The notes under the pieces: generated by a model
Database searches by the model: none
The model's input: the letters and a program-made list of their open reading frames with translations, nothing else
What the model was told of the DNA's origin: nothing
In this document: in pieces, positions 19,393-53,180 of the stretch
Layout of the letters: each line of letters opens with the position of its first letter
Numbering within the stretch: position 1 is the stretch's first letter
DNA from: Apostichopus japonicus
Taxonomy: Eukaryota > Echinodermata > Holothuroidea > Aspidochirotida > Stichopodidae
Reading direction: 5' to 3'
DNA length: 64,000 bases
Assembly: GCF_037975245.1 (NCBI RefSeq)
Contig: NC_092566.1
Location: 5,208,001-5,272,000, forward strand
Program-made: the position numbers and the translations under genes

Positions 19393-19435
19393 ATGGTAAT
19401 TGAACGTTCAGTCTGGAACCTTTTACACCCAGTCG
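19393..19435 (+). CDS. EGF-like: pro-EGF-like exon 1: start codon and first part of signal peptide
   Basis: The ATG at 19393 has an in-frame TGA a few codons upstream, so the reading frame begins here. The exon encodes MVIERSVWNLLHPV and ends in phase 1 at a strong GTAAGA donor. Joined to exon 2 it gives an amphipathic n-region and a hydrophobic core (GLIVLLHW) with a likely cleavage after Cys-Arg-Ala (residue 25). The Kozak context is only fair: T at -3, G at +4. An untranslated exon further upstream cannot be excluded. This exon is the least certain part of the model because it is short. Confidence 0.68.
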
Positions 19436-22400
19436 GTAAGAAGTATGCCGGGCACCCATTTAAGCCCAGGACGCCCCTCCACCCCCCCCCCCATAATGGT
19501 TCATGCCCCTAAACTAAGTCAGTCGGGTGGGAGGATAAGAATTGTCCCCAATCAATTCCTTAGAAATTTTGTGCATGTCACTTGGGATTTGTATATGTCT
19601 GTCTTATACGGTATGAATTGATCTATTTGAATAAGCAATTTGATTAGTAATTAAAAAACAAATAACATGGCAGAGTTTAGTTAGCCATTGTCTGAAATGA
19701 AAACAATTTTTCTTTCATATTGCCAGAGATACTTAACAGTATTTTTGTTTTTATTTATCTACAGGCCTTATAGTCTTACTTCATTGGTGTCGTGCTGACT
19801 GTCCAGATGGTTACGAACAAATAAGGAGAAATGGATGCAGAGGTAACGTTGAAATGAATGAATCAACATATCCCTGTGTTATTTGTGGGACTATAAATCA
19901 AGGAGTTTGTATAACGTTACGTCACGTAATGTAACGTCCCATATTATGTAATAACCATTTAGAACAATTTCCTTAAATTATACAAAGCTGTCAAATCAGA
20001 AAATAAAAATTCAGACAGCTGCACTGAAGGTCACCTGCATTTGGATATTTCTAGCCTTCTGAAACGTTTCCGAGAAATGAAGTGAAGGTCAAATAACGAA
20101 GTCATTATCTTGTGGAAAGAGAATTATTTCTAAAATATAATTGTCTAAGAGATGAAACGTATGACCATTAATATAAAGTTTGATATCTTGGGATGTATCA
20201 GTGCTTACACTGCAGGTGGTGCATCCTAAGGTCATGTTTTAAATACATCACATAATACCTGGATAAGTTGACATGTGACAACTGGTGACCCCCCCCCCAA
20301 CCCTCTGCACATGCCATATAGCAATTGTATATTGAGAAGTGGGAGAAGTGGGCGCAATATGCCACAATAGATTGATGTTATATATGTTATATGGTAAAAC
20401 AACAACAGTAACTTCAGTAGGCCTAATAGAATTTCCTTAAGTTGCATCGATATGTTCAATATATATTTTTCGTGTAGATATTAACGAATGCAGCGCTTCT
20501 AGTGAACGTAAATGTGGTCAACTTTGCGCCAATGAACCTGGGACATTCAGATGTGGTTGTCTGTCGGGGTACATCCTCTCATCGGATAACACGTCATGTC
20601 TTGTAGATGGTAAGTATCACTTAGTGTTTTCTGTATGTGGACGCCAGACTTGTAGTAAATCCGCACTTGTATCAATCTAATCAATCAATCAGAAGACATT
20701 TATATAGCGCCAAAGTCAACATAAATTGTTCAAAGGCGCTATTAGCCTTGGTCATTGGTAACTTGTCACACCCACACACCAAAGTGTGCGCAATTCAATC
20801 TCTCCTGGGGCACCACAGTGCACCACAACCACGTGTCCCCGGGGGACTTCCCATACGGTGCAGCCAAAAACCGGCGCACGCAACTATATTTACAAGTTAC
20901 CTCGCAAGTCCCCATTTATACACCTGGGTGAAGTGAGGCAATGGAGATAAAGTGCCTTGCCCAAGGACACAACGCAATGATCTGGCCAGGGCTCGAACCT
21001 GTAATCCTTAGATCACCAGTCCACTGCCTTAACCACTTGACCACAACGCCCTCCAAGTTGGTATCAAGTTGGTATCAAGTCAAACGTCAAGTTAAACCAT
21101 TCACTGGGAGGCAGAGCAAATATTCGATACCTTTGATTACGCAACACGGATTGTATCAATGTTTCATATACGTTATACGTGCTTATTCACACTTGCGAAC
21201 ATATATCACGTGACTTGACTATGCCAACCTCCGATACGCACACGTACAGTCGAATTCCGCCTTGATCAATACATTTTCAAACTAAAACAATTTCTGACAA
21301 CGATAATGTCTCTATCTCAGACCCATCGCCGAATTGGCGAAACCGAATATTCCGTTATTCTTTCATTACGATGTTTATGTCAACTATCTTCAAGTTTAAT
21401 TTTAATGTGAACTATTCACATGATTCATTGTATACTCCAAATCATTCTTGTTATTCTTATCAGGATCAGATCCGGTTATCTACTTCCGTCGAAGGAAGGA
21501 CATCGCCCAGGTAGATCCTGCGGGCTTACATCCACAGATAGCTGTTCGACGTGTCGGTAACATAAGATCCTTTGATGTGCATTACGAGTCGAAATCCGTC
21601 TACTGGATAAACGGGAGAGTCCCGTCTATCGGTATGTCGCCACTCGATGAAAATGGAAGGACAGAGGTATGTATTACTAAAATCGGTGAAGGAGGGGTGG
21701 GGGACAGTTGGTTAGATTTGAGGATTTAAAGAACCGATCTCTGGTGGTGTAGGAGGAAAAAATCCCGAAATATGAGATGAGGCTACAATATTCAAGGGTT
21801 TACTGGTATACCGTTTCACCCCTTCCCCTCCTCAACTCAAACCGTTTACATGCAAACCATCATTTGAGGTTCTAGTCGTCCTGCGTTATTTATAAATAAA
21901 ACATATATAAGCCGTTTCTATATAATATGGTGGTGTTTTAAAACAAAATGAGTTAGTATCGTAATACACAGTTAGTTTGTACCATACAAAACTTAAAAGT
22001 AAGCGTTACATGGCACCATCAATTTAAGGAAAAAATCAAAAGAAATATTTTCCGCCGAGTCTACACTTATGGCTGGTCTACTGCTTTATAAAGTACACAT
22101 GAGTGTGTAGAACTAGGTCGAGCCCAAGGGACATTTATGTCACCGGGACTACTCTTTCGAAATCTTCATTTCTTCTTACGTATGTTATGCAAATGAGAGT
22201 GCATTATTCTTTATCCCGTTCATCCGCTAGCTCTGGCGTTCACCTCTCTCTGTCTCGTGTGTTTCCTTTGGCCCCCTAATAACCATCGGGCACAGGGCTG
22301 TATCCCCCCCATGACCCTTCCCCCTCGTGAGGCCTGAAGATACCCGCAAAGAAACGTAAAATGTATCAATGTTTTTTTTTTGGGCTTCACCATACAGCGA

Positions 22401-25400
22401 ACGGTCTATGCAGCTCTTAGATACCCTAACTTACAGACAAATGGATGCCCCGTTTGCTAAGATCAAAACAAAATAATCCAGATTTGATATTATTATAACT
22501 GAATTCATTTTCCATACGAGAGGTGATAAAGTGAACAATTAAACTGATAATCAGATGTGTAGATAATTACAACACAATAACAACCGTATAAAAAAATCAA
22601 CCGGAAGTTATGTCTGCGATCTTTCCTCGGAATATCTCAAAAGATTTTACTTGAAAAATATTGATAACAATCAGGCAGTTTTATAGCTAATACAAATAAA
22701 TATTTACAAAAATGAAACGTTTCAAGTTAACATCTCAGGAGGAAATGACGTAGGGCACAGACTGCAGGTACGACTGAATTAGTAGTTATCAAACGTCTTA
22801 TTATATCTTACTGGATTTTAACCTGTTAGACTTTAAAGGGACTCTATACAGTCACACGAAAAAAAGAAGAAATTTCGAACACTTGCAAGACATTTCCGAC
22901 AGTTAAGAATATGCTTGTTTCCATTGTACGTATATATCTGTGCTTCTTTTAGTGTTCACAATGTTTAACTGGTGATATAAATCCAATGTTTAGCATTTCG
23001 TCACTATTGTAGTGCTTTTAATAACTGTATTGTTGGTTTTTCTGACGAAACCTATCCCACGTTATTATTACATAATCGAACATTGTTTGTTGAATTATAA
23101 TCTCCACAACTTAAAAAAGCAGATATTAAGTTTCGCAAGAAAATCTTTTACAAAGATATAAGCCTAACACAATTAAGTCTTCAGCCCTACCACACTTTCG
23201 TAGCAGATCTATATGTATCTTTATTTCACCTAATTTGCATATGAAAGTCTGGGTTAAAGTTGTATTCGAGATCGATTGATTAGGCTAATAATAACCAGAT
23301 AGCCGCGGATAATTTTCTCCGTCAAAACGAGAAGTCTCAACCTACATGCTTCGCCAGTGGCCCGAACTGGTCTAGTTGGACCCGGAAAACTTGTGTCACA
23401 GGGTCCACCTCTTTTACATATTGACCCCGGGCTTTGGCGCTTGAGCCCACCCCCCCCCCAACTCCCGCAGAAGCTACTCTATACCTCTCCATGCACGTAT
23501 GTCCCACATCATTTTCGTACCGTATATTGTATTTGTTTTTTTAATCAATAAAGTATTTGATTTCTATGCCTTTTATTAATTAATAGGTTTTCAATATTGA
23601 GAATCTAGTGAAGCCAGAGTCGTTAAAGATCGATTGGATTGGTCATATGATATATTGGACGGATTCTAAATCTAAGGCCATCGTTAGGTGTAGCATGAAC
23701 GGAACAGACCAAGAGACGGTGCTCACATCCCAAAAGAAACCCAAGGCCCTTGTTCTTGATCCTATCGATAGGTAAGTAAAACTACCCCATCACCAATGGA
23801 TTTCCTGCTCGTGGAGTGCCGTGGAGATGATAGGTAGTCTAGAAAAGTCCCTTTCCCCCTCCCTCCTCCTCCCTTCCCCCTCCCAAGAGGTAGATATATT
23901 ATTTAACTATTCACTTGTAATATATATATCATTATTCGGCACCATACTCCAGTCCATTACTCGGTAAAGGTGGTTCCTCTCATATAACATAAAGGTAGGC
24001 TAATTAACTCCCTTATTAAGCTTTCTTCACCCCAACTTTGTTTTACTTTTGCTCATATTATCATAATACGTACATCGCTACTCCCTTCCACCCCACCCCT
24101 CCCCCACCCTTCGATCCCAATTAATTTCCCCTCCCACCACTCTGCGTCACCACGTACTCTGCGTGTTATACATATCTTAACTTAATTAAATGGAATCGTA
24201 CTGGTCCTTGAAAGAACCTATTTGCATTAACTTTACTGAACTTACCAATGATATGGATATGCGAAAGCTGCTTCAAACATCTTTTTAAGTTATTTGTAAC
24301 CAACAAAGCACCACAACCGCCCACTCTCAATGACGCTTCCTACACCTTCGAGACAGCCCATAAGTACAGTAACCAATCTGTTTGAGTGTGGGAGGCGGTG
24401 GGACTCGCTTTGAAACGAGACGTTGTTGTAAGGCTTGGAAAATTCAGAGATTTTCATCGTTTTTTTTTCCTTTCTCAAAGATTTGTTTTCTGGAGTACGA
24501 GTGGTAAAGCAGAACGTATTTACAGAGCTGACTTTGATGGTGCTACCCGCCAACTCATCGTCAGAGAAGAACTGGAATTAGTTGTCAGCCTGGATGTTGA
24601 TATTATTGATAAAAGAATTTACTGGTTGGACCAGGAGAGAGGCAAGATAGAATCAGTCAACTATCAGGGATCTTACCGTACTGTTCTCGTTAGCGGTATC
24701 AGGTATATATATACACCATTATTGTTACATTTCCCAAACTATGGGTCTCCATGTATTATAACGTTCGCTTATATATATATATATATGTTTGTTTATAAGA
24801 GTCTCTCTGTCTTAAAATATAATATAAAAAAAGTAGAAAACACTGACGGCGCCCCTTCCCCTCGCCTTCTCCCATTACCCTCTTCTCGTCGCGGCTGGGC
24901 ATTGAGTTGAGTTTTACAGCATGTTATAGGGATTGGGTGCTGATGGGGTGCCAATAGAGAAGTCGGATGTGGTATCAATGAAGGGAGGTAAAGCCACAAT
25001 CATATTCGACGTGAAAACTCTTATAGAATTTATGAAAAATCCCCACGGTTTTAGCGATTATTCACACAAAAAAGGCAAAAAAAAATTAATGTAAGGTCTT
25101 TATCTCTCAATTAACAGGACTGAGGCGACTGGGTTATCACTTCTCGCTGACTCTATTTATTGGTTAGGGACGAATCCGCCCTCTGTCCACAGGGCGGATA
25201 TTAGGACAGGCCGGCGTCAAATACGCCTCCGTTCGAACTATTTCTTGTCCGGACAAAATAACATTGTTGTTATGCATCAAAACAAACAACCAACAAGTCA
25301 ACAATGTAAGTATATTATTTATTAAAAAAACTTTCTGCATTTTTGGTTACGATGCCGAAGGCTCAGTAACCTTTGTTACCGTGCACGTGTGTGGGTGCGG

Positions 25401-28400
25401 GTGCGTGTGTGACGGATAGCCATGTAAACACGATATCTCAACCACTACAAGAATCAACATCGTATTTGGTAGGTAAATGCCCAATGATGAGCAGATGTGC
25501 CCGTTTGTTTGGGTTACCATCTCTTGCATATTAATTAGTGGGCGGGCTCACCATAAAATGGTTGGAATGTCAGTATCTCTGCAATATATGTCCGAGTAAG
25601 CAAATACCTAGTATGGTGATGTCACTACACAGTATTTACATGTCCTTTGCAACACCAATTTAAACCTCAATAATATTCATTAGGGGGTGGGGCATAATGA
25701 GATATTGATATGGTAATGTGGTACATAATATGCACATTTTCATGACGTCTCCATTTTGATGCGCTTATTGGTCATCATAATATTGCAAGAAATGGCTTTT
25801 AAACACAAGACAAGAACCAAATGTTCCATGGTTTGCATCCTTGTCACACTACATTCGCCGAAAAAAAGCAGTGTTCTTTTTTGTGTGAACATCATGAATA
25901 TTAATAAGTGAACATAAAGTTGTTAATCAGATATCTTTGAAATTGTATGTCTAATTAGCTTTATACATGTACTTGATTAATACAATGAAAGTATATAGAT
26001 ACATGCTTATGAGATCATAAAATTTGACCTCGTTAATATTCATGCATATATATGTTTTTATGCTGTCACTAAATAGACTTTGCCAACAACTGATTCCTGG
26101 TACCTTCCTTTATATATTGCCGCAATAGTTAATCCCTCGTCATTTTGGTGTGCGCAAGTTCATGAATAATATCATGTATGGCTTAACACACTAAGAATAT
26201 GTTTAGGCATCGGAACCATTAAACGTTTTTGTTTTTTTGGTGTTACTTTTATAGATTTTTTAATGCAAACTTTTAACGTCAGTAAAACTCGAAAGGGTGC
26301 AACATTCTTAACTGACGACCAAAGCCATAACTTGGCTTTAAAATTAATTATGGCATGTTATATCCATTGTGGTTTCGACTTATACGGATACATTATTATA
26401 TTTGTAACATGCCGCTACCTAACAGGGCATATCATTATACACCTTGCCGATTATAAGAATCTTAACGCCTACAGTAGATTTTTACACATACAACTTAGAA
26501 AACCGCAGTCATGTTAACGTTGACTGCTGAAACCACAACGGAAGGGTGTCAAACTCGTAAAAGGTAAAAAATGTCTGGTTTAATGAAATTGCAGGAGAAA
26601 ATGTCAACAATTCTATTCTTTTGATGTAAATTACATGAAACTCACATATTTCGTGGGAACGTTGTTCGTGAAACTGTTTTATAATGTTAATTCAATTTAT
26701 TTGGAAGTATGATACATGTTATTTGCATCTGGCAATTTCCGGAAGATGTTTAATATGCATTTTAACTGTACGGTATCGCACATAGGAACTTCATATCATA
26801 AAAAAAAATATAAAACATTTTGAAACTAAAAACAGTTGGGACACTTCTCTGATGTATATAGTCAATTCTTTTACGCAATACTTCAAAGCATATGTAAAGT
26901 GGTAGTAAGAGCAGTTCCGAAGCTTCATCAATGGTCCAATTTAGTCGTTTTCCCATCTGTCTATGTATATTAAATATGTACATAGTCTCATTTCGTGCCT
27001 GTTGGCGTTTGAAGAAAATACTGCTAGGGTCGAAATAATATTTACAGTCGATTATTCATGTATTTGATTTTTCATCAGTTTATCACGGTGACTGTTCGTC
27101 CTGGAATAGCTGCTACAATTTTCCGCACCAAAAACGAGTCTCGACCAACGAACCATTCGTTTTGTTTACGACCAATAATACCGTCCGTAAGATTAACCAA
27201 GATGGCAGTAATTACAACTACGTCATCACCAAAAACGTTTACAATCTCGTCGGTGTGGATTATGACCCAAGAGTGGGTAAAATCTTCTTTGCCGATGCCG
27301 GGAGGGGCGTAATTGAAAGCGCCAACTTAGATGGTACAGAACGTCGAGTAATCGTTAATAGTAACAACATAGAAACCGTGGAAGGAATCGCACTGGACTG
27401 GATGCATAGACAGATTTACTGGACGGATTCAAGGTAATTGCCCTCTCAGACGAAGCACCAGGGACGGGGAGGGGCGGAGAGGGATGGTAAGGGTGGTCGC
27501 GGTGGGTGCAGGGGTCGCCATATACCGACGGAAGATCGAACTTAATTCGCTGATCCGATATACTATATACCTGTCAGGCATGACTGATCTGAGGAGGGAT
27601 GGGGTGGGGAAAGTCAGATGGTGGTACAACCCCGGGGTTCCGGGACCGGTTAAACAGACCGGGGAAATATGGGATAAAGAAATTAAATTTATTTTCATAA
27701 TATATGTTAAAGGAAAACGAAGACATGAAGAAACTGGGTGCAAAGTAAATCTATTTCATTGGAACTGTTACCATAAGGGTGGTTTAGTGATACCATGTAA
27801 AGGAACAATAACTACACCATGTCCTGTCCACCCCCCCCCCCTGGGTCCGAGTCAAAGGTACCCATCCCACAGTTTCGTCGTTTGCACTAAATGCACCCTT
27901 ATGCCCCAGATCAGCCTTGTGCTAAGTGTAGAATAAATAACACAATGATATAAAGTCTATCAGAGTGTGATGGCGCCTGGTTTCATTCTGATAGAGTTTA
28001 TACCCGTACATTTCATGTAGATAAATGGACTTAACACGTAATTTTAAATTTTCTAATTTCTTCTGGCGCAATAACGGTGTGGGAAACCGGTAACTGGTAA
28101 TAATCGTTAAGAACTAATTATTATGTCATATCTTGATAGCTTGCACCACGTTGCTGCTTCAAGTTCACACGGTGGCTCGATACGGATCCTGGCCAATACC
28201 GGTGTTTTCCAGCCTCGTGGAATTACGGTTTATCCTGCATTGAAGTAAGTACATACCGACAATCAAGCGATTATGGTTTAACTGCAGCGATTTGTATGTT
28301 GTCATTAAAGTGTGGGTATATGAAATTATTCTCGAATGAACCACTTATAACAGCTATTAGTCGCAAAGTCAGGGACGCAACCAAGTACACCTCTGGGGTG

Positions 28401-31400
28401 AATACCCCCCCCCCCCTCCCCCAATAGTATAAAGAGGGACACAGCCCTCCTCCATCAGCAAATAAAATTTGGCACCCATTTTGCATCTACCCACCACTTA
28501 ACCAAAATTTACCAAATTAAAGGTGGATACTTCCAATGTAACACATAACATCTCACACACCCTTTGTCCCCTCTGCCCCCCCCCCCCTCCCCCACTCACC
28601 TGCAGTGCAAAAATGGTGGGTACACCGCTCAGTTGAGCTGAGTGAGAACGATCTAATGTAAGGGCGATGTAGTATATACATGCTATGAAGGTTATTCTGA
28701 AACTTTTAGTATTAACCCCCCTCCCCCCTTATCTAAACAGAGAAATAATAGGGATAATAAATATTGCTAGTTTCAAAGCGTTCATTGTTATATTATAATA
28801 CAGCATCAGTTTTTGCTCTGATAAATTGAAGCTGTCACAAGAGATGAAAGGCGACAAGTCGTTATTTTCATTGACATGTTATGTTGCAGCTAACATGAAA
28901 AGGTTCATCATAATTAGGTCATTTCTCTGTAAAAAAAGGATCGTTTTATGTGAAAAGAGACATTTATCCATAGAGAATTAGGCAGTATTTCAAAGGACGG
29001 TTTTGTATATAAGATTTCGCGTTGGCTATAAACATGACAAAAAAAGAAAAGAAAAACAGAAAAGAGAGTTTTTTAGTTTGTTCTAAACGAGGAAGGAAAG
29101 GGGAAACTGTCCAAATGCTTAGAGTGAGGGTCCGAGGGGAGGGTGGGGGGGGAGGTGGAGGCGAGGGGTAGTGAGAAGTCGATAGCACTTATTGATCCCT
29201 TCTGTCAAGGCTGCGTATAGTCAATGTTTTGTTTATCTGTCACTTCCATAGCTGGATTTATTGGACTGATATTGCCGAAGGTGCATCAAAGATTGTGGCT
29301 TCTCTTCATGACGGGACCTACCGACGAGACATCATCGACGAAAATCTTTTCTACCCGAATAGCATCACCATCGACTTCGTGCAGAATAAATTACTATGGG
29401 TGGACTACGGTCTGTCGGTCATCGAACAGTCATCGCTAGAAGGATTAGATCGAAAGGTTCTCTTTCGTTTAGCAGAAAGTGGACATGCAAATATTCAGCC
29501 GCATAGTTTAGAAGTCTTTGATAAGTTCATATGGTATACTAACTGGGAGGATGACATGTTAGTACGACTGGATCACCGTAATCACCATACCATGGATATT
29601 CTGGGTGATGACCTTTGGCATCCCACTGGTATCAAAGCAGTTGATCCACGCAGGAGACGAATGCCAAGTAAGTGTTCTATTTCTCTCTTTAGATGTTTCT
29701 CTCTCCCTCTGTGTCTCTTTTCTCTGTTATGAAAGAAGCATGTTTGTATTATGGGTTTGTACTACAAATCAATACACCCAATGACTTGACTCACAGAATG
29801 TGTCCTTGCTTGTGTGGTGCATCCACATTGTCTTGCAAAACATTTATTTACCATCTCGAGAATTTCTGAAATGTAAATCGTTTTTCAAAATTCATATCAA
29901 TGTTTCTGTAATATGTTAACGGTGTCAGATATTGGCTGTAAACATGCTATATGTAAAAATAACGGCCTCCCGCTGTTCAAACTTAAAAACTTATACAAAT
30001 GTGTGGTATTTTAACGCTGACGTCATATTTGTATTCCATCTATAGGTCTCAATCCGTGTAATGTATTCAATGGCCGATGCGACCATATTTGTACGTTAGC
30101 CGCCGAAAACCAAGCCACGTGTAGCTGTCGTGCTGGATACCAGATTTTGGAAGATGGCCGCACCTGTCTCCTTGGTAAGTTTAGTATCCGAGAACGTCGG
30201 TTCAAACGTGCGGATCCAGACCGGGGGTGGGAGGGGGGGGGGGGGTTGTAAGGATTGGTTGTACACTACCCTTGTCAACCTCTCACAAAATTCATGAGCA
30301 GTTACTAGCTGTAGCCACATTTTTGCGTTTAGACCTAAATATAGTCTGAATATGCCCCAATGGCCCCATTTGACGTCTAAGTTTCTATTACAAGTCCTCT
30401 TACAAGTAGAACCGGCTTAAACTATCACAGGGCCAGACATGCACCTTACATAAATCTTGGATTCTTGTGCAGTATCTTGTATACTCCCGTTCACAGGGCT
30501 TCGTCATAATTCACTTGACGTAACACTGTTATATTTATACGGTAGTCTCGATATAACGGGACGGGCTTAACAGTGGATCAAAGTTGTTTCGTGTATAAGG
30601 ACCAGGCACTATTATTGGTGACTTTTCTTAAACAGAAGTATTTAATGTTGATTCGTACCACAACGAGACCGTCGATTACGTCACACGAAGGTATAGGTTA
30701 TACCTGAGAGTTCACCAACTACCAGCTTCATTCTCCCAAAGGTTCTACGAATGAACACTCTTAACCGTCATGGGGGGGGGGGGGCGTGTCGGCGTCGGTG
30801 GGTAGGGGAAAATTTGGCAGTAAAGCAGTATTTATGTATTAGTCTCTCCGTTCGTGTATCGATATATCGGTGGAATTCCAATCAAACTTTTAACCATATG
30901 ATTTTGTTTATATGTTTAGTAGTCTACCTGTTCAATGAACACACTATACTAGTATTTCCGACTTCAAATAATGTGTCAATTAAGGGCAGGCACACAAATC
31001 GTTCGCTGTTGCGTTGGAAAATTGTAGTCTTTACTTCTTCGGTTGAACAGAAATTGACAATATTATTGCTTTAACTTTCCTTCGATGTAATAAACAAACG
31101 CAATATTACTTCCTGTCTGGGCTTATACTTGTTAATGTTGTTTGTAATTGTATAATAAATAAATTCATATATGCTTTTACAAATTTATTATTAACATAAT
31201 ATCAACGATAAAACGTACTTATTACTTAAACCTAAATATCACTTCCTGTATAATCGTCGCTGTTTCTGCTTGTATATAGTAAGTAAAGAAGTTACTTGAG
31301 GAAAATTGACTTTGGTATAGGTTATCATACGTTACTTTAATAGTCAATCGAGGCAAATAGAGAGAGTTCTTCATATGTTTAATACTTAATATTTGCAGAT

Positions 31401-34400
31401 GCTCTTTCCTGTGTCTAAAGTTGGTTTTGTATTAAACTTTTCAAAGGGTCTCATCTGACTCCAAACATGTATGATTTATATTGGTAAAGGCTTACTCTTG
31501 GCGGTAGAAAAAGCTGTAAACCGCACTTGCGCTATTAGATGAAGTAGTCTTGTGGAAGGATGAGGGGGGGGGATGGGGGGGGGGGGTGGGGGTGGAGATG
31601 CGGTGCCTTCCGCTTGCATTCCCAGTCGATAGAAAATGTCTTGCATGTGTGTGGTCTTGTCTTGGCAACGATGATGGAATATAAGTTTGCTGCAACGAAC
31701 TTGGGATTCCTTCTGCTCTGTTTCGTTGTAGTTTAGTTAACACCAGCTAAGGAGGCAATGTAGGGTATGGAAAAGCATACAAGAAATTGTTTCTACCGAT
31801 TGAATGATAACAAACCAATATATATAACTGTTGCCTCTGTGTTTCGTTTCTTTGGTTAATATAATATAAAATAATATATATATAAACTAAGTTATATACA
31901 TATGACATATGTTAATATTGGCAGTATATACAAAGTCATGAAAAAATATATCTTTATAATAAACAATACATGTTCAATATCGGATTAAGAGCTCGGTCAC
32001 CAATGATCACCAAATCAACAATTCTGGATCACTTTTGGCGCACATTGTATGCCTCTGAATGGCTGGATGGTTTTACTCTGATAATTATGTCATGCCTCCA
32101 AAGGTCTAATGACGTCATGATCACATGACCACACTCTTGATATAGGGACACTCAGGGTTGCCAATGATGATTAGGGACACTCAGGGTTGCCAATGATGAT
32201 GTCAAGTTAGATTATTTTATTTTAATGCTCACGTTTGTTTCTTCAGTCAAGTGTTCTCAAAAGTTAAAATTAAACGACCGTTGGTTTTGTTCTGTTTTTT
32301 TTTCATCACAGATAATCCCTGTGAAAGTGGCGATGCGGTATGTGGAGATAATGCCTTTTGTCTGAGTGATAGATCCGGTGGCTATACCTGCATATGTAAC
32401 AATGGATATGAACATGACCTAAATTATGGTTGCGTAGGTAAGATTTTATGGTCCTGAGGAGGGTGTGTGTCTACTTATAATGAAAATATTAATCTGTTGT
32501 TTTGTCTTAAGCATTAGGCTATCTTCATCAGCATGTTACTATATAATATATCGCTATAAAGTCACAATTAATGGAATTAAGCGCCTCACTATTGGATTTC
32601 CGAATTACGGCGTTCAAAGGACGTACAATGTATGACTGATTTTATTATTTGTTTTTTGTTTGTTTGTTTTGCAGAAATACAAGTTCCTCTGCTAGGTCCT
32701 GTGCTCGTCACGATACCGAACCGACCAACTGAACCAACGACGACTCCAGTGAAAACGACAACGAAGGAAGCAGCGACTACGCTGTCGTCACCTGAGACTA
32801 CGACCATTGAACAAGTCAACAAGACAACCACGGAAGGTGCGACGACGACAACGTTCAGATCGACCACGATGGAAGACCATTTAGCCGCTTGTCCTATCTC
32901 ACATACAGATTACTGTACTAACGGGGGATCGTGCAAATGGATCACTGCCCTCGACTTGCCATCTTGCACGTACGTAAAATCAGCTGATTGTTGCGGTATA
33001 TAGTAGCGTATAGTAATTGGGATTTCACTTCCTGATCGACTTTACCAATACAGTACGACCTAAGGCACGATTTTTTTTGGGGGGGGGGGCATGAGACGGT
33101 ATGAACTCAAATTTCAATTTCATTTTTTGCAGGACATGAACAAAGTTGTCAAAGACGAATGGGGTTATCGTTTATATCAGTGAAGTTAAAAATAACATGT
33201 TTTAGTTGAGTTCTTAGAATTGATAAAACAAATTAGATTTCCCGATTAACAATTAAGGACTGCATTACAAAGGAGTCGACGTCATCGTCAACTAAGCCTT
33301 AAAAATGGAACATTTAGCATATTTTAAAACTGAATATCATGAAAACCGGAATAGCCTGAAAAAAAACGGGATAACCGGAATAGAAACTTCACTAATCACT
33401 AGCACAGCTAACACTCGCATTTATCTATTTACTTAGACTATAACAATTAACACTATAACAAAATTCTGCCAAATGTCACCATAAAAGCTGGTAATATGAC
33501 ACGACATATCTGACCTGGAATAATCATTCGTTATAATCTGTTTTTATATGTCTCTTTTCAACCAGTTGTACGCCACAGTATACTGGTGCTCGCTGTAGAC
33601 ATACCAGAACGCTTATATCGCGGTTCTTGGATAATCCGGTGGCGGTAGCTGTTTCTGGCGGTGTTCTTCTTCCCATTTGCTGCATCCTTTCTCTACTTGC
33701 AGGTTGCTTCCTCTGTCGAAGGTAAACCATATTACAAATACGCTCTTTATTTCAATAGAATTGCCTCAGAATATGGTGTTTTGTATATGTGTGCGGTGTG
33801 TGTGTGTGTGTGAAGCAGATCTAAACTGCCCTAATTTGGACATGCATAGGGCAGTGGGAGAGAGAGAGAGTGGTGTGGGGAGGGGGGGGGGGGCTGGGAG
33901 GGCTTTGAGACAGTCACCACGCATTCACGACTACGTGACACAAGATCCACTATGTTCAGCCTCGTAGCTAATATGTTAAGTACTGTGATCTTTTTGCCTG
34001 GAAATTCTGTAATCACTTTCAGTTTTAAAATTTTTTAAAATAATTTCTTACTGACTATCTTTGGTTATTTGTTGTTGTTGCTTGATTCAACAGTTGCTGC
34101 ATGTGTTGAAAATTTCAGACAATGATGCGTCTTATTCCGAGCAGAGGTCAACTGAAATCATTGACACTGTTTTCTGACATTGTTTTCAGTTAAAGTGGAA
34201 TGTTTGGTTATTTTGCCACGTGTGTTTTAATGGTCATTACTTATGGTTATCATCTGCGCTTACGTTCATGATAATGTTATGAACTTTTGTAGATTTTCTT
34301 AAAACATTCGCGCCTTTTTGTGTGTGTTTTCAGATTGAGCACTGGGTCATGCAAGTCGAATAATTCTCCAACGAATTGTCATCCAGATGGTAGAGTCTCA

Positions 34401-36870
34401 ACTGATCTTTTTCTGCGCAGAAGTACTTCCTACCACCAAAGAGGTGAACACATAGATAATCCGGTCTACCACCCACCTCGAAATAACATCCAGGTATGTG
34501 TCAAACAAACTTTTTGTTTCCTATTTCTTCCTAAAACGCCGCCACAGAATACATCCACTCCGTGCTTAACCATCATCTTCATTATGCAGCCCAACACAAC
34601 ATGCAACACCATACCCTCCTCCTCTTTCCAATCCCTACAAATACATCCATAATAGAAGTACACGTTCATTCAAGGGCGTAGGAACTGGGGGGCTGGGGGG
34701 CGGAAGTATCATTCCGCCAGTCAGAAAACCACTTTTTCATTTCCAAATGAGAAAAAAATCTCATTTGGAGCACCAAATTGCATCTAAGGCCAGGTGAAAA
34801 TGCAAAATTATTTACAAAATGGAGTGGGTGTTGAAGTGTGCTATATTACACCAAATTGCATCTGAGGCCACCTGGAAATGCAAACAAAATTCCACCCCTC
34901 CTCTTAGACCCCTCCCCCAGGCCGGCCATCAGTCTTCAGCCCCCCCCCCACTCAAAGGTACCTTCCTACGCCACTGCATTCATTTCATATTAAGATCGTC
35001 AACACAGCGCGGAAGTTGAATAAAGAAACACATGTCTGCGTACGCCCCTATTGGCTTGACTTAATTTGCATTTAATCAGTAACCAGCTGGCTAAATTCCA
35101 GCTGGGTGCATTTGGCGTGATAAAAAATTACATAACTTTCCAACGCAATGGGATTCAAAAATTTTGTTAGATCAAACCATCTATGCTGGGTTGAGCTATC
35201 GTGATCCGCCACCATCACCCGATCCATCCATCCATTTTACTGAAACTTGGACACAATGTTGGTTGGATCTTGGGCTACTTTCGACCACCGGGAAATGAAA
35301 GTCAAAGGTCATTAAGGGGTCACTACAGGCCATTATGTGAAAATTTCATAAACGTATCTCCTCTTTCCCAGAAGACCACATATTTTTGAAAGTTGGTCAT
35401 AATGTTTCTTGGGTAGTGGTCATTAGAGGTAAAAACCTGAAAATCTCTATTACAGTCTGTCAAGTGATCTTGACTGCTCATTCTTCGATTGATTTTGATG
35501 GAACTTGGACACAAGGATCGTTGGATGTTGGGCTACTTTCAGACATCAGGAAGTTAAGGTCAAAGGTCATGTACAGGTCATTACAAGCCATTATGTTTAT
35601 CTTTAATAGGTATCTCCTCTTTCCCAGAGCGACCTATGTTTATGAAAGTTAGACACAATGTTTGTTGACTGTTGGGATACTTTTGACCACCGGAAAGGGA
35701 AGGTCAAAGGTCATTTAGGGGTCACTAAATGACATTATGTGGAAACCCTTCAAAATCTATCTCCTCTTTCCCAGAGAACCATGCACATTTTCTTGAAAGT
35801 TGGGAATAATATTTCTTGGGCAGTGCCTCTTTCGGGGTGTACAGGGATTTTGGATCCAAGGTCATTAGAGGTCAAAACCCGGAAATTTTTAAGAAATCAA
35901 GTGATCTTGAATGCTCATTCTTCGATTAATTTTGATGAAACTTAGAAAAAAATGATCGTTGGATGTTGGGCTACTTTCGACCACCGGGAAACTACGGTCA
36001 AAGGTTGTTTACAGGTGACTACAGCCATTATGTGGCCAATATTGGAGCGTAACATCCTCGCTGGAACAATAAATTCGCACTAAATCAAATTGAACGGTTC
36101 GAGTTACTGCACCATTGGTGCTCTAGTTATTAGCAAGTCCATTCTCAAGCGAAGTCTTTAGCATGGGCCCATAGAGTTTTGATAAATGTTATTCTAGTTA
36201 TGAAGACACGTAACTTTGTGTTCAGTCCTTTCAATCTTATATTACCTAATATTGTTCCAACTTGGGACATAGTTATGCCTCAAAGAACTTGTACTGACAA
36301 TATGAGCAATATAAATATCCTCTTGCTATCAGATAATAGTTAGGAACTGTTCATACTGTCAATACGAGTGCTTCAAAGAATGATATGGAAGGACAGTCAG
36401 GAGGGATATTAACATTGCAAAATTTTCCCAACTGGCTGTGTTATTATTATTCTATACGATTTATGAATTAATTGATGTAATTATTTATCTTTTGAACTCC
36501 TAATCAATAGATGCAAACAATCGATCGATCTTCATTCCATCTCGCTGAACCACGGACGACAGAACAGTTCTCAACGTTCCCACGACGTGCACCGCCAGTG
36601 CAATCCACAAATAACAACAACGCTGCTGATGCCACTACTACTACTACTACTACCAATGACGTCACATCGACTTGCCAGAGCCTTCCACGTGATCAGCAAT
36701 TACACGAAGAAACCAATAAGCTTACCAGTGGTTATGAAGATATGAGCCGAGGCAATAAGCCCAGTTCGCGGAAAGACACTAGCTCATATATCAGTATGGA
36801 CGACTCGTCTACGGAAGGGCATGAATACAGTAGCACAATTGCAAAGCATTATTCACAGACCAGGATTTAG
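19393..36870 (+). CDS. EGF-like: Pro-EGF-like type I membrane precursor (16 coding exons, 1050 aa, complete)
   Basis: Sixteen exons join in frame with compatible phases and GT-AG introns: 19393-19435, 19765-19842, 20478-20609, 21464-21666, 23587-23771, 24481-24702, 25118-25305, 27079-27433, 28140-28244, 29252-29667, 30046-30174, 32312-32437, 32675-32969, 33566-33721, 34334-34493, 36511-36870. Domains by residue: signal peptide 1-25, half EGF 26-40, Ca-binding EGF 41-84, YWTD propeller about 86-335, two-Cys linker 351-370, second propeller about 376-640, EGFs 647-683 and 689-726, Thr-rich stalk about 745-793, membrane-proximal EGF 800-836, membrane helix 850-876, cytoplasmic tail to 1050. The juxtamembrane EGF has spacing CX7CX5CX10CXCX8C with YxGxRC, the ErbB-ligand signature, and its intron falls between Cys4 and Cys5 as in vertebrate EGF-family ligands. 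Family knowledge: such precursors shed a soluble ErbB/EGFR ligand. Inference: this is the animal's EGF-type ligand gene. Alternatives (LRP, LDLR, nidogen) lack this ligand EGF. Splicing is deduced by eye. Confidence 0.88.
19765..19842 (+). CDS. EGF-like: pro-EGF-like exon 2: end of signal peptide and a half-EGF
   Basis: A pyrimidine-rich stretch ending in ACAG precedes the exon. It encodes the rest of the signal peptide, then the mature N-terminus DCPDGYEQIRRNGC, which looks like the third loop of an EGF repeat. The exon ends in phase 1, so the split codon makes the Asp that opens the next Ca-binding EGF. Confidence 0.85.
20478..20609 (+). CDS. EGF-like: pro-EGF-like exon 3: calcium-binding EGF domain
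   Basis: One whole EGF module in a symmetrical 1-1 phase exon, residues 41-84. It begins DINEC (Ca-binding consensus), has six cysteines at 45, 53, 57, 66, 68 and 81, and carries the Asx-hydroxylation pattern C-x-N-x4-F-x-C-x-C at 57-68. Confidence 0.93.
20679..21054 (-). mobile_element. tRNA-derived SINE in pro-EGF-like intron 3
   Basis: Read on the minus strand it starts with a tRNA-like head: A-box-like TGGTCAAGTGGTTAAGG, then the B-box GGTTCGAGCCC. A body with GTGTCCTTGGGCAAGGCACT follows, a core seen in many marine invertebrate SINEs. It ends GGCGCTATATAAATGTC with an ATTGATTGATT tail. The tail resembles that of the LINE at 11.8 kb. Confidence 0.85.
21464..21666 (+). CDS. EGF-like: pro-EGF-like exon 4: first blades of YWTD propeller 1
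   Basis: Residues 85-152. The opening strand reads PVIYFRRRKDIAQVD and the second blade has YWIN at 131-134 where YWTD is usual, both typical of LDLR class B repeats. Phase 1 in, phase 0 out. Confidence 0.92.
23587..23771 (+). CDS. EGF-like: pro-EGF-like exon 5: YWTD propeller 1, middle
   Basis: Residues 153-213. Contains a canonical YWTD at 175-178 followed by the usual blade pattern (IVRCSMNGTDQETVL). Phase 0 in, phase 2 out. Confidence 0.93.
24481..24702 (+). CDS. EGF-like: pro-EGF-like exon 6: YWTD propeller 1, middle
   Basis: Residues 214-287. Two blade motifs, FWST (217-220) and YWLD (261-264), separated by RIYRADFDGATRQLIV, the usual LDLR class B spacing. Phase 2 on both sides. Confidence 0.92.
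25118..25305 (+). CDS. EGF-like: pro-EGF-like exon 7: last blade of propeller 1
   Basis: Residues 288-350. Blade motif YWLG at 302-305 followed by a Gln/Asn-rich stretch with no cysteine, where other family members normally begin an EGF repeat. Phase 2 in, phase 1 out. Confidence 0.88.
27079..27433 (+). CDS. EGF-like: pro-EGF-like exon 8: linker and first half of propeller 2
   Basis: Residues 351-468. It starts with a linker holding only two cysteines (356 and 362), then blades PFVLFTTN, GKIFFADAGRGVIESANLDG and RQIYWTDS (YWTD at 464-467). The acceptor follows a T-rich stretch ending TTCATCAG. Phase 1 in, phase 2 out. Confidence 0.9.
28140..28244 (+). CDS. EGF-like: pro-EGF-like exon 9: propeller 2
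   Basis: Residues 469-503, completing one blade (GGSIRILANTGVFQPRGITV). Phase 2 on both sides, 105 nt, in frame with its neighbours. Confidence 0.88.
29252..29667 (+). CDS. EGF-like: pro-EGF-like exon 10: second half of propeller 2
   Basis: Residues 504-642. Blades show NWIYWTD (YWTD at 507-510), NKLLWVDYG and KFIWYTNWEDD, ending near RRRRMP where the next EGF begins. This is the longest exon. Phase 2 in, phase 1 out. Confidence 0.92.
30046..30174 (+). CDS. EGF-like: pro-EGF-like exon 11: EGF repeat after propeller 2
   Basis: Six cysteines at 647, 654, 658, 668, 670 and 683 in a 1-1 phase exon. A propeller followed by a packed EGF is the standard LDLR/EGF-precursor arrangement. Confidence 0.92.
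32146..32199 (+). repeat. Short tandem duplication in intron 11
   Basis: GGACACTCAGGGTTGCCAAT followed by GATGAT appears twice in succession. No known role. Confidence 0.85.
32312..32437 (+). CDS. EGF-like: pro-EGF-like exon 12: EGF repeat
   Basis: Six cysteines at 689, 696, 702, 712, 714 and 726 in a 1-1 phase exon. It starts DNPC rather than the DxxEC of a strong calcium site. The acceptor follows an unusually long T run. Confidence 0.92.
32675..32969 (+). CDS. EGF-like: pro-EGF-like exon 13: Thr-rich stalk and loops A/B of the ligand EGF
   Basis: Residues 728-825. A Pro/Thr-rich, probably O-glycosylated segment (about 745-793) leads into Cys1-Cys4 of the ligand EGF (800, 808, 814, 825). 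I placed the donor at TGCAC/GTACGT because it joins the next exon in frame and gives C-T-C. A second GT six bases on would break the C-x-C spacing. Confidence 0.9.
33566..33721 (+). CDS. EGF-like: pro-EGF-like exon 14: loop C of the ligand EGF, stalk and membrane helix
   Basis: Residues 826-877. Cys5 at 827 and Cys6 at 836 frame TPQYTGAR, which holds the family-invariant Gly833 and Arg835. A 13-residue basic stalk (RHTRTLISRFLDN) follows, where shedding would be expected, then a hydrophobic helix at 850-876 and Arg-Arg as a stop-transfer signal. Confidence 0.9.
34334..34493 (+). CDS. EGF-like: pro-EGF-like exon 15: proximal cytoplasmic tail with NPVY
   Basis: Residues 878-931. Ser/Asn-rich tail with DNPVY at 919-923, an NPxY-type motif of the kind that binds PTB domains and clathrin adaptors in LDLR-family tails. 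Phase 2 in, phase 0 out. Confidence 0.85.
34673..34976. mobile_element. Short element with GGCGTAGGAA termini (about 304 bp) in pro-EGF-like intron 15
   Basis: GGCGTAGGAA at the left end and TTCCTACGCC at the right, with a possible CATTCA direct repeat outside (34667-34672, 34977-34982). Inside, CACCAAATTGCATCT occurs twice. Boundaries are approximate. Confidence 0.5.
35557..35569 (+). promoter_or_regulatory. DR1-type nuclear-receptor consensus, unit 2
   Basis: AGGTCAAAGGTCA: two perfect half-sites with one spacer base, the RXR/HNF4/COUP consensus. Sequence match only; repeated exactly at 35701-35713. Confidence 0.5.
35701..35713 (+). promoter_or_regulatory. DR1-type nuclear-receptor consensus, unit 3
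   Basis: Second perfect AGGTCAAAGGTCA. The other two units of the array carry one- or two-base variants. Confidence 0.5.
35859..35874 (+). promoter_or_regulatory. DR4-type nuclear-receptor consensus
   Basis: AGGTCATTAGAGGTCA, two perfect half-sites four bases apart, the spacing used by TR- and LXR-type heterodimers. Sequence match only. Confidence 0.45.
36511..36870 (+). CDS. EGF-like: pro-EGF-like exon 16: distal cytoplasmic tail and stop
   Basis: Residues 932-1050, stop TAG at 36868. Holds two YxxM motifs, YEDM (1006-1009) and YISM (1024-1027), an acidic DDSSTE patch, and a (ACT)n microsatellite at about 36637-36652 coding for seven Thr. The acceptor is ATCAATAG. The exon begins with ATG in phase 0, but this Met is internal to the spliced frame. 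Confidence 0.82.
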   Translation: MQTIDRSSFHLAEPRTTEQFSTFPRRAPPVQSTNNNNAADATTTTTTTNDVTSTCQSLPRDQQLHEETNKLTSGYEDMSRGNKPSSRKDTSSYISMDDSSTEGHEYSSTIAKHYSQTRI

Positions 36871-39271: not shown

Positions 39272-39610
39272 TAGTGAACAATTAAAACATTTTGCAGAAA
39301 AATGTTGAATTGACGAGATATGATAATTTGTCAATTTAACATTTTGCAGAAAATTGTTGAATTGACGACATACTATAAGTGATCAATTCAACATTTTGCA
39401 GAAAATTGTTCAATTACTCAGTTGGAAGTGAACAATTGAACATTTTTCAGAAAAATGTTCAATTTACGAGATCTGATAAGTTTTCAATTAAACATTTTGC
39501 AGAAAAAATGTTCAATTGCTCAGTTAAAGCAACTGAGCAATCCAACATTTTTCTGATTTTTGATAAGATATTATCTTGTCATCTAAACAATTTACTGGAA
39601 AATGTTGACT
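39272..39610. repeat. Tandem array of hairpin units, period about 50 bp
   Basis: Five clear units and one or two degenerate ones. Each has the core CAATTxAACATTTTGCAG followed by AAAAATGTTxAATTG, so each can fold into a stem of about 14 bp with a small loop. Spacers alternate between ACGAGATATGATAAG-like and CTCAGTTGGAAG-like words. AT-rich, between the pro-EGF-like 3' end and PFDN1. Confidence 0.88.
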
Positions 39611-42060: not shown

Positions 42061-42150
42061 CTATGGTTTGGCAGCTTGTCTCTGCGCCACCATTTCTCTT
42101 AGGTTATCTTCGCTTTCCTTCAATTTCTTCTGGTAGTATACTTTACTTCC
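42061..42150 (-). CDS. PFDN1: PFDN1 exon 4 with stop
   Basis: Thirty codons including TAG. Encodes YYQKKLKESEDNLREMVAQR, matching the C-terminal helix of prefoldin 1. The acceptor follows a long pyrimidine tract ending TTTTCACAG. Confidence 0.94.
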   Translation of the reverse strand, partial: GSKVYYQKKLKESEDNLREMVAQRQAAKP

Positions 42151-45100: not shown

Positions 45101-45478
45101 TGTGTATAGGCTAATGCCCCCTACATTCGCTGAGATTTGCCATCGAAATTTCGCATAACTAGTACCAGGTCTAGTAGTCATACGGCCATCACTGTAGTCC
45201 TGGCCTAACTTAGCATAACCTTGGTTGGCCCGATTTGTCATAGGCCTAGGCTATTGTATATGATAAATGCCTAACGTTAGGCTAGGCTTACAAGTTACAC
45301 TACAGTGGTTTATAATCACAAATAGGTTTCGTTTATATACAAAGTCTTGTGCCATTCATAATACTTCATTAACTTGATATTACTCTGATGTCTTCAAGTA
45401 CAAGCGATGAGCCAAAAAAGTAAACGAAACAAAATAACCTACTTTTCTGAGCTCCATGTCTACCGTGGAAGCAGCCAT
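42061..45478 (-). CDS. PFDN1: Prefoldin subunit 1 (four exons, 125 aa, complete)
   Basis: Exons on the minus strand, in order: 45443-45478, 44284-44450, 43046-43130, 42061-42150. All introns are GT-AG with matching phases. The protein starts MAASTVDMELRK, runs through a first coiled-coil helix (about 8-50), the beta-hairpin motif YEGVGRMF (62-69), and a second helix (about 75-120) ending RQAAKP. Human PFDN1 is 122 aa with the same order and an almost identical hairpin motif. Prefoldin is a cytosolic hexamer that passes unfolded actin and tubulin to the CCT chaperonin; PFDN1 is one of its four beta-type subunits. Start chosen at the first ATG, context AAGATGG. A hAT-type element ends 47 bases upstream of the ATG, so the 5' UTR must be very short, lie in the element, or be spliced. 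An ATTAAA-like signal near 41622 could end the transcript. Confidence 0.95.
43046..43130 (-). CDS. PFDN1: PFDN1 exon 3
   Basis: Completes Met68, then FLLHDKPTIKTVLEDK and the start of the C-terminal helix. Donor GTGAGT after Leu-Glu, phase 0. Confidence 0.94.
43784..44142. mobile_element. hAT-like TIR element in PFDN1 intron 2 (about 359 bp)
   Basis: Termini CAGGGATGTGCCCA and TGGGCACATCCCTG, flanked by the direct repeat GGAAGTC, whose right copy overlaps the terminal bases. Toward its right end the word GTGCTGGGCGG recurs three times and is followed by its inverse GCCGCCCAG. Class is inferred from the terminus only. Confidence 0.72.
44284..44450 (-). CDS. PFDN1: PFDN1 exon 2
   Basis: Residues 13-67, the N-terminal coiled-coil helix and first part of the beta hairpin. 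Acceptor TTTGACAG, donor GTAAGT, phase 2 out (the AT of Met68). Confidence 0.95.
45443..45478 (-). CDS. PFDN1: PFDN1 exon 1
   Basis: Encodes MAASTVDMELRK and ends in phase 0 at GTAGGT. Human starts with the closely similar MAAPVDLELKK. Confidence 0.93.
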
Positions 45479-45524
45479 CTTGTTAATGATTTGTAGAATG
45501 AGAGCTCCAGTCGTTATATTAGAA

Positions 45525-45927
45525 CAGGGTTGTCCAACCTTTTCCAGAGGAGGGCCACATGGAATGATTATGATGAAGGAGTGGGCCGCATGAACCCTAC
45601 GCTCAATTTTTCGATTTTTTGCCCGAAGCGCAAGGCAACAAAGTGTGAGCACTGCGCGGAGCGCACTAATTTATTTTCCTTCCTGATAAAACAGATGAAT
45701 AAAGTTCAGCCGCCCCCCCCCCCCCTCCGCTGAGAGAGTGTCACACAAACTGACCTGTATGCAGTTTTTTGGACCCAAAAGGTTCGAATGATTGATTATA
45801 TAGCTTCAAATTGTTATCAATAAATCTGCTCACTAAAATTTCGCACAGTAGAGCATCTCTGGCGGGCCGGACGCAACCCTGCGGCGGGCCGGACTGTGGC
45901 CCGCGGGCCGTAGGTTGGACAACCCTG
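45525..45927. mobile_element. Non-autonomous hAT-type element, copy 2 (403 bp), at the PFDN1 5' end
   Basis: Same family as 11131-11538, with an intact 8-bp duplication TATTAGAA (45517-45524 and 45928-45935). It ends 47 bases upstream of the PFDN1 start codon. The close similarity of the two copies suggests recent movement. Confidence 0.93.
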
Positions 45928-45935
45928 TATTAGAA

Positions 45936-51515: not shown

Positions 51516-51716
51516 TCAACCATCGAGAAGGCAACAGAGACAGAGGGCGCACATAGCTATCAGGCAGCATTTCTCTGCGGTATCATCGTCGCGTCGATTC
51601 CGATTGTCGACGTAGACAACTGTCCGGTCTGTGTAAACCGTATTTTGAGGAGGCGGTGGAACGGATCCCTGGCATCCGTAAGTTTGGTGTTGTCCCGTGT
51701 ATGGCTGATAAGGGCC
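51516..51716 (-). CDS. CYSTM1: CYSTM1 exon 2 with CYSTM module and stop
   Basis: Residues 39-104 and TGA at 51516-51518. Acceptor ATCAACAG. It holds the diagnostic VVYVDNRNRRDDD segment and the six-cysteine hydrophobic tail. Confidence 0.92.
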   Translation of the reverse strand, partial: GPYQPYTGQHQTYGCQGSVPPPPQNTVYTDRTVVYVDNRNRRDDDTAEKCCLIAMCALCLCCLLDG

Positions 51717-53180
51717 CTGTTGATTGGATGAAACATCAAACTGATGAACAAACTGTTCATATAGTATATCATGAAATGAGAAATGTCAAGTGTGACGACT
51801 CAACTGCGGTTATAGATGTTTATAGTAACTGAAATATCATCATTAAAACTTGAGAAACTAAAAGTTACATCTCCGCTGGTTTCAGACTACAACTGAAATC
51901 TTCAGAACAGAAAATGCTATTGGTCACACTCCAAGGCAGACAGCTGTAGAGATGACGCACTACCAGAACACACATACAGTCATACACCTTTGCTTTAGCA
52001 ATGAGGGGCAACATCGATAAAGTAGATAAGGATATATCTGGCGTGGCTGTCCACCTTGATGTGTGACGAAATAACTCAGTGAGAGGGTCATAAACTTACA
52101 TAATGAGAAATAAAATGTCACAGTGCCAAAGTATAGACTAGAAACATGCACTCATTTAACACTTAGAGTAGGCCTACTTCCTCGAGTTGTTTTCTATGAG
52201 AACTTGGCAGTTTTCAACTAAAGAGTTCAACGCTTTCTTATGCTCATAACTTGAGCAATCAACAAACGTAATAATGGTGAATTAAACAAAACAGGAGACA
52301 TCATCATAACATTGGGATAGGGTTACCATACACCCCTATAAATTGCGACTGTCATGATTTTTCTCCAATGCGAATATATCGTACCATAGGAAAATGAACT
52401 TATCCCACTTTTCTAAACATCTATCTTTATGCTAGGCTAACAAAAATGTACACATGAAGTATGCATCACTATAGTTGATTTTTCAGAAGATTGAAGATAT
52501 GTATTTGTTTACATCACATAAGCTTGCATGATGGCTGCATAATTAGCCCAACAAAGCTTGGTGAGAAAAGCTGTCTAAAGCTGTCCAAAGTGCAAGAGTG
52601 TTAGCTCAGTGGTTAAGGCTAGTGCATTTCAATCATAAGGTCCCGAGTTCGAGTCACTCCAAGATTAATGTATGCCGTCCAGTTACAGAGTTGTTGACAA
52701 TTGACAATTCATAATCATGGACGTTAAATATGAATCTATGAGACTGACTTCGGTCAGCTTGCGGCTTTGATTAGCCAATGATGGCTTCTTCGCGAGTTCC
52801 TGCTTGCAGGAGGATCTAAAATACATACATACATACACACATACATACATACATACATATGCACATACATACATACATACATACAAGTGGCTGCAAAAGC
52901 TGTCTTAAGTGGGCTGCATAGTTTCAACAAGGACAACCCGACACTGACTGTATCTACACTGTGATACTCCCATTGGAACCCTCCCATAGGACACAGTGTC
53001 CCATTTTCTTCAACCATAGAAATATGGTAACCTTATATTGGGACTATAAAGCATTTAAAACTGTACCTGGGCAGCCGGATATGTGGCAGGTGGTCCTGGT
53101 GCTGGTGGGTAAAAAGTCTGAGGGGGTGGATACGGCTGAGGCTGAGGAGGGTATGCTGAGTAAGGGGGTGGATTAGTCAT
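51516..53180 (-). CDS. CYSTM1: Cysteine-rich transmembrane module protein (two exons, 104 aa, complete)
   Basis: Exons on the minus strand: 53067-53180 and 51516-51716, joined in phase 0. The N-terminal half is Pro/Tyr-rich with a PPPY motif at 4-7, a possible WW-domain ligand. The C-terminal half has PPPPQNTVYTDRTVVYVDNR and then the CYSTM module at about 79-104, with cysteines at 88, 89, 94, 97, 99 and 100 in a short hydrophobic stretch. Human CYSTM1 (97 aa) has the same layout: a PPPY start, PPKTTVYVVED before the module, and a CCCC-type C-terminus. The family is membrane-associated, and palmitoylation of the cysteines is likely. Its molecular role in animals is poorly defined; plant and yeast members are linked to stress tolerance. 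The intron carries a tRNA-derived SINE. Upstream untranslated exons are possible. Confidence 0.92.
52581..52894 (+). mobile_element. tRNA-derived SINE in the CYSTM1 intron
   Basis: tRNA-like head with A-box TTAGCTCAGTGGTTAAGG and B-box GAGTTCGAGTC, a 3' part with the hairpin TTCCTGCTTGCAGGAGG, and an (ATAC)n tail at about 52822-52885. A 15-bp target-site duplication with one mismatch, AAAAGCTGTCTAAAG, flanks it (52566-52580, 52895-52909). A different family from the SINE at 20.7 kb. Confidence 0.85.
53067..53180 (-). CDS. CYSTM1: CYSTM1 exon 1
   Basis: Encodes residues 1-38, a run of Pro, Tyr, Gln and Ala. Donor GTACAG in phase 0 after Pro-Ala-Ala-Gln. Confidence 0.88.

Follow-up and report, generated by a model that had tools for sequence, protein, structure and literature searches.

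The window considered here is a 64-kb stretch of the genome of the sea cucumber Apostichopus japonicus (G000:C6:5208001-5272000, where C6 is the contig that carries it). It contains a gene for a pro-EGF-like precursor of an EGFR ligand, followed by the genes for PFDN1 and CYSTM1, and this arrangement bears on the origin of two vertebrate ligand genes, EGF and HBEGF. The ligand gene occupies 19393-36870 on the + strand, PFDN1 45478-42061 and CYSTM1 53180-51516 on the - strand, which bears out the presence and the order of the trio proposed in the first-pass annotation of this DNA. Genome-wide searches were made over 671.6 Mb in 35 contigs. The features on which the argument depends are as follows.

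19393..19435, + strand: probable first exon of the ligand gene, with the start codon and the start of a signal peptide (donor GTAAGA).
19765..36870, + strand: the remaining 15 exons of the gene for this pro-EGF-like EGFR-ligand precursor, with fitting phases and one terminal stop (19765-19842, 20478-20609, 21464-21666, 23587-23771, 24481-24702, 25118-25305, 27079-27433, 28140-28244, 29252-29667, 30046-30174, 32312-32437, 32675-32969, 33566-33721, 34334-34493 and 36511-36870).
21464..25305, + strand: first YWTD beta-propeller (propeller I).
27079..30174, + strand: second YWTD beta-propeller (propeller II) and its EGF module.
32675..33721, + strand: EGFR-ligand EGF module with six cysteines, then a transmembrane helix; a phase-2 intron lies between Cys4 and Cys5.
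45478-45443, 44450-44285, 43130-43046 and 42150-42061, - strand: the four exons of PFDN1, the last with the stop, with GT/AG borders.
51516..53180, - strand: CYSTM1, with its start codon at 53180 and its stop at 51518-51516.
53180-53067, - strand: Pro/Tyr-rich first exon of CYSTM1 (donor GTACAG).
Probably 51716-51516, - strand: cysteine-rich second exon of CYSTM1 (acceptor inferred).

It had been argued from the sequence that such an order would be hard to explain by chance, and the calculation agrees: if two ligand genes are assumed among 19,828 genes (the number in the published A. japonicus genome; PMC10344927), PFDN1 would be flanked by CYSTM1 on one side and a ligand gene on the other with a probability of about 1e-8. 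The microsynteny is confirmed as real and far beyond chance. The same annotation had named an assembly join error between 37 and 42 kb as something that would overturn it. A wrong join of the ligand gene to PFDN1 is conceivable, the check made here being of the assembled sequence, but there is not one N in the 64-kb window or in the surrounding 264 kb, and therefore no gap-marked join between 37 and 42 kb; the assembly is probably the PacBio HiFi one with a contig N50 of 17.2 Mb (PMC10344927); and a misjoin would need to recreate the human order by accident. We regard an artefact of this kind as extremely unlikely. Ten open reading frames (ORFs) of the window were scanned against Pfam: the three intergenic ones among the trio and the one overlapping PFDN1 matched no family, and the only match among the ten was a weak one, below cut-off, at 2172-2660. 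Rfam gave no match within the 64 kb.

The ligand gene is read as 16 exons encoding 1,050 residues, the sole stop being terminal (the first exon is plausible, though unproven). Among the upstream ATG-to-donor candidates, 19393-19435 tied second by hydrophobicity (1.96), the top candidate (2.78) being 17456-17486; across the first junction the N-terminus would read MVIERSVWNLLHPVG-LIVLLHWCRA. The protein comprises two YWTD propellers, EGF modules, a Thr-rich stretch, the ligand module, a membrane-spanning helix and a cytoplasmic tail; with both propellers placed ahead of a ligand module that lies close to the membrane, it has the architecture of pro-EGF. Pfam families above cut-off were Ldl_recept_b (122.2 bits), FXa_inhibition (46.9) and cEGF (34.8), with EGF_CA (26.4) and EGF (20.5) slightly under it. 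Propeller II with its EGF module scored 186-188 bits against the corresponding part of human pro-EGF, more than with the best LRP or LDLR propeller in the PDB (170 bits); there, LRP4 chains scored 160-170 bits and LRP6 150, and single LRP2 propellers ranged over 65-130. Propeller I gave 97-100 bits with propeller I of human pro-EGF and 125 with its propeller II.

The ligand module (CPISHTDYCTNGGSCKWITALDLPSCTCTPQYTGARC) lies directly ahead of the transmembrane helix. Two criteria have been published for ErbB ligands: the EGF module lies near a transmembrane segment, and a splice site divides it between its fourth and fifth cysteines (PMC1618406). Here, exon 32675-32969 ends TGC AC, immediately followed by GTACGT, after Cys4, and the next exon starts T TGT; 13 residues follow Cys6, and then comes PVAVAVSGGVLLPICCILSLLAGCFLC, judged by eye to be a helix. 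The Arg before Cys6, a conserved residue of ErbB ligands that lies outside these two criteria (PMC1618406), is also present (...YTGARC). In a comparison with the PDB, the first 19 of the 53 sequences listed were ErbB ligands or EGF/TGFA chimeras, before any other protein, with TGFA (42.4 bits) and EGF (40.7 bits) at the top, an EGF/TGFA chimera between them, and HBEGF at 30.3. Over some 37 residues, identities were 18/37 for EGF, 17/36 for TGFA and 16/36 for both HBEGF and BTC, so that by sequence the module appears about as close to EGF and TGFA as to HBEGF and BTC. The Pfam EGF models do not detect it, and this, together with the strong matches of the propellers to LRP2, LRP4, LRP6 and LRP8, might suggest an LDL-receptor-family protein whose EGF repeat merely resembles a ligand, no EGFR ligand being present at all. 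That explanation is highly improbable, given the precedence of ErbB ligands among the matches of the membrane-proximal module, its possession of their splice site and of the Arg before Cys6, and the absence of any LDL-receptor class A repeat among the nine Pfam families found (exons upstream of 19765 being uncertain).

The PFDN1 product matches Pfam Prefoldin_2 at 65.7 bits, as one of four loci in the genome to match that family at E <= 0.001, and its nearest prefoldin is subunit 1: a PDB search gave three matches, two strong ones, at 114.9 and 98.5 bits, to entries named 'Prefoldin subunit 1', and one at 24.4 bits to 'Prefoldin beta subunit 1'. The CYSTM1 product falls below the Pfam CYSTM cut-off (16.2 and 17.8 against 25.2 bits), but this cut-off would reject the human protein too, since human CYSTM1 scores 23.9 bits; and a genome search with the CYSTM family was uninformative because even the window copy went unmatched. 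In an alignment with human CYSTM1 the Pro/Tyr-rich head and the RRD...cysteine-rich tail can both be placed, and in all three comparisons made the score was above that of every one of 1000 shuffles (143, with a shuffled maximum of 79; 73, with 54; and 36, with 34). Tblastn searches with two differing versions of CYSTM1 found the tail exon at E values of 6.5e-9 and 8.5e-6, and a genome search with the window CYSTM1 tail at E <= 10 returned the window copy alone (one candidate passed the first look).

At human 5q31.3 the order is CYSTM1, PFDN1 and HBEGF, and relative to the human strands PFDN1 alone is inverted, as the first-pass annotation proposed. ANKHD1, SLC4A9 and PURA are wider neighbours of HBEGF there. 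By position, the window ligand gene corresponds to HBEGF in its adjacency to PFDN1 and CYSTM1. Published mammalian lists accord with the grouping: one paper labels a 5q31.3 locus HBEGF/PFDN1 (PMC6223698); CYSTM1, PFDN1, HBEGF and SLC4A9 lie within one interval in sheep (PMC6568386) and at one single-nucleotide polymorphism in cattle (PMC8446201), accompanied in these lists by NRG2, PURA and IGIP; and, among human genes assigned to four variants, the same four are listed side by side (PMC12381276). In the 264 kb around the window, 2180 ORFs were ranked by coding potential and ten of them scanned against Pfam; these ten included no further 5q31.3 neighbour, and other genes may lie there. Of the three wider neighbours, only the ANKHD1-type family has a locus on C6, the SLC4 and PURA families having none.

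If the window gene represents the one from which EGF and HBEGF both descend, C6 should share genes with both of the human regions. A family was counted as positive when at least one of its loci was on C6; four of seven located marker families of the two regions are positive in this sense, C6 being 2.8% of the genome (P = 1.3e-4 for four or more under random spread). This value covers the located families (PLA2G12, which had no match, and GAR1 were left out), takes human positions from general background and does not come from a fixed list, because the markers were chosen successively, some of them after the first positives (MCU and PITX). All three matches to the MCU family are on C6; MCU and MCUB are at human 10q22 and 4q25. 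A search with the PITX2 homeodomain gave 52 matches, the three best of which are on C6 (79-83% identical over the first 47-49 residues), while the next 13 are 41-63% identical and on other contigs; the C6 homeoboxes are called PITX-like by identity, and PITX1, PITX2 and PITX3 are at human 5q31, 4q25 and 10q24. Both matches to the ANKHD1-type KH domain, which adds one more family of HBEGF neighbours, are on C6, ANKHD1 and ANKRD17 being at 5q31.3 and 4q13. So are two of three Sec23_trunk loci, identified at the level of this domain family; among the human relatives, SEC24A is at 5q31 and SEC24B at 4q25.

What is directly observed here, namely the genes and their order, the exon structure of the ligand module, the only CYSTM1 found, and several marker families on one chromosome, suggests that the window is a remnant of an ancestral deuterostome neighbourhood that has survived for more than 500 million years. 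We consider it probable, on the basis of a single invertebrate species, that HBEGF and EGF trace to a single gene of pro-EGF type with PFDN1 and CYSTM1 as its neighbours, and the observations fit EGF and HBEGF being duplicates of one locus from the two vertebrate genome duplications (2R). To this extent the descent of HBEGF from a pro-EGF-like locus, and the ancestor shared with EGF, which the first-pass annotation had inferred, draw support from the microsynteny, the pro-EGF architecture and the MCU, PITX-like, Sec23_trunk and ANKHD1-type families on C6. Before 2R, a single locus would have held a pro-EGF-type ligand gene with PFDN1 and CYSTM1, presumably in the order seen here. One daughter region, now human 4q25, would have lost the neighbours and retained the ligand with its propellers, as EGF; another, now 5q31.3, would have kept PFDN1, CYSTM1 and the ligand, the last as HBEGF after losing its propellers. 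In the sea cucumber, the gene product is probably a type I membrane precursor, from which the membrane-proximal EGF module may be shed by proteolysis to activate the animal's EGF receptor.

A number of points weigh against this derivation. The evidence comes from one species, and the cited papers cover part of the human positions, the rest being general background. With LRP8 (168.5 bits) and VLDLR (159.6 bits), propeller I gives higher scores than with its counterpart in human pro-EGF; the human propeller I may be divergent. Leu47 is important for EGF; its counterpart sits one residue later in the window module, and receptor binding is therefore not assured. Nor is the Cys4/Cys5 splice mark exclusive, since mucins, meprins and IMPG2, whose receptor activity is unproven, also carry it (PMC1618406). 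On the larger scale, much of human 5q31 is unlinked to the window locus in the sea cucumber: all five matches to PURA are on C16, all 41 to SLC4 on C23 and C2, and, of five to alpha-catenin, four are on C5 and one weak one on C23, with none of any of the three on C6, so that the claim has to be limited to the triplet and some chromosome-scale linkage. A genome search for PLA2G12 gave no match, which does not demonstrate absence. The common ancestry of EGF and HBEGF claimed at the outset draws no support from the placing of PURA and SLC4 on other chromosomes, or from a module about as near to EGF and TGFA as to HBEGF and BTC. Moreover, HBEGF microsynteny is reported not to be common to tetrapods and teleosts (PMC2834686). 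This last point, and the unlinked PURA and SLC4 families, could be taken to favour coincidence or convergence, the gene order having arisen independently in two lineages; against a chance of about 1e-8 for the triplet, and with further marker families of both human regions on C6, we think this very unlikely.

The window gene is also not the only possible ancestor on C6, because a second gene there is ligand-like. It lies on the - strand at G000:C6:16060001-16079000 (L041, L042 and L038) and, over the stretch that was read, encodes several EGF-like modules, two of which resemble those of EGFR ligands (CPERYRDYCLNGGTCHYITDLAEPSC and CHEKGANYCLNGGTCNFVASENRIEC); in the first of these two, just as in the window gene, a phase-2 intron apparently separates Cys4 from Cys5. 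The main rival to a single ancestor for EGF and HBEGF follows from this: the triplet would be ancestral, but HBEGF would derive from another ligand gene of the ancestral chromosome that moved beside PFDN1 or replaced the first. The half module of the second gene is identical to HBEGF at 11 of 25 positions, compared with 16/36 for the window gene over the whole module, and PMC2834686 leaves room for several pre-2R ligand genes. On the other hand, the second gene is 10.8 Mb away, it has several EGF-like modules, its half module is nearest to NRG1 in the PDB (27.0 bits, with HBEGF at 21.8), and replacement at the same spot costs an extra event; we therefore judge this course of events rather unlikely and retain descent from one gene beside PFDN1 and CYSTM1.

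The idea of a common ancestor for EGF and HBEGF is not new. It was proposed in 2010, on other grounds, that all EGFR ligands, with EGF, TGFA, HBEGF and the EREG cluster among them, come from one pre-2R gene on vertebrate protochromosome C, corresponding to parts of human 2, 4, 5 and 10; the proposal gave no invertebrate ortholog and reported no clear one in Ciona or amphioxus (PMC2834686). A survey of 2016 recovered no EGF-type ligand in sea urchin and filtered new candidates for one EGF motif (PMC4914847); because of this demand a gene like that in the window would have been excluded, which suggests that surveys of this design would miss such an echinoderm ligand. The window gene may well be already machine-annotated in public databases, and an open-access literature search, mostly of listings, gave no description of the EGFR-ligand/PFDN1/CYSTM1 block outside vertebrates. 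What the locus supplies is a candidate for the pre-duplication gene and its architecture. EGF modules are too short to resolve kinship among EGFR ligands, and a positional anchor is therefore useful in bypassing module length; with it, the origin of HBEGF can be settled by comparing gene order across other deuterostomes. More tentatively, and as a reading that is less likely than not, one might extend the scheme to one pro-EGF gene with propellers, next to PFDN1 and CYSTM1, as ancestor of all the vertebrate EGFR ligands. HBEGF, TGFA and the amphiregulin group would then be stripped-down forms, and the block would have been kept together in deuterostomes by regulatory elements of the ligand gene situated within PFDN1 and CYSTM1 or past them.

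Other features of the window and its surroundings deserve brief record. Two minisatellite arrays with 16-bp units in opposite orientation (TCTCTATGTTCCGACG and GTCGGAACATAGAGAC) occupy 12920-13606, flanking diverged T-rich and A-rich 16-mer arrays, the whole forming a long palindromic repeat. Near-identical ORF stretches at 10974-11618 and 45380-45929 (both - strand) suggest copies of one dispersed repeat, the second lying just upstream of PFDN1 exon 1 and overlapping its frame; an ORF at 11926-12177 (- strand) resembles by eye the end of a reverse transcriptase, and two ORFs scanned in these regions had no Pfam match. A 202-residue open frame at 62498-63106 (+ strand), acidic, rich in Ser and Asn and with a C-terminal hydrophobic stretch, possibly encodes a tail-anchored protein (its only match, to DUF7649, was weak, at 15.8 bits against a cut-off of 27). 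To the right of the window, BICC1-type KH exons lie at a distance of 61-64 kb (66 and 53 bits), and a third match, a weak one, is found 94 kb away; to the left, at G000:C6:5.14-5.16 Mb (L009-L011, - strand), one ORF has an ANF_receptor domain (203 bits) and, by eye, belongs to a run of similar frames, which probably form a tandem array of metabotropic-glutamate-receptor-like genes. Farther off, the three PITX-like homeobox exons of C6 at 9.255, 9.281 and 9.331 Mb fall within about 76 kb, possibly through local expansion, and SLC4-type transporters have four separate loci on C23 (at about 0.28, 3.14, 6.76 and 12.38 Mb) and a fifth on C2.

Among known systems, the window gene can be compared with human pro-EGF, with which it shares two YWTD propellers, EGF modules, a membrane-proximal ligand module, a transmembrane helix, the spacing of Cys2 and Cys3, and a propeller II alignable from end to end. 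It differs in having an extra EGF module before propeller I, fewer elsewhere and a Thr-rich stretch before the ligand module, and its neighbours are not those of EGF at 4q25. With human HBEGF it shares the neighbours PFDN1 and CYSTM1 and an ErbB-ligand module with the 16/36 identity already given; HBEGF, however, is short, lacks propellers and has one residue fewer between Cys2 and Cys3. The ligands of the 2016 survey belong to the same molecule family as the window ligand, although sea urchin yielded none there (PMC4914847). Finally, the locus fits the ancestor predicted by the proposal of a single pre-2R ligand gene, and partly also its chromosome context, differing in that the proposal had no clear Ciona or amphioxus ortholog to draw on and left the architecture of the ancestor unstated in its section 10 (PMC2834686).

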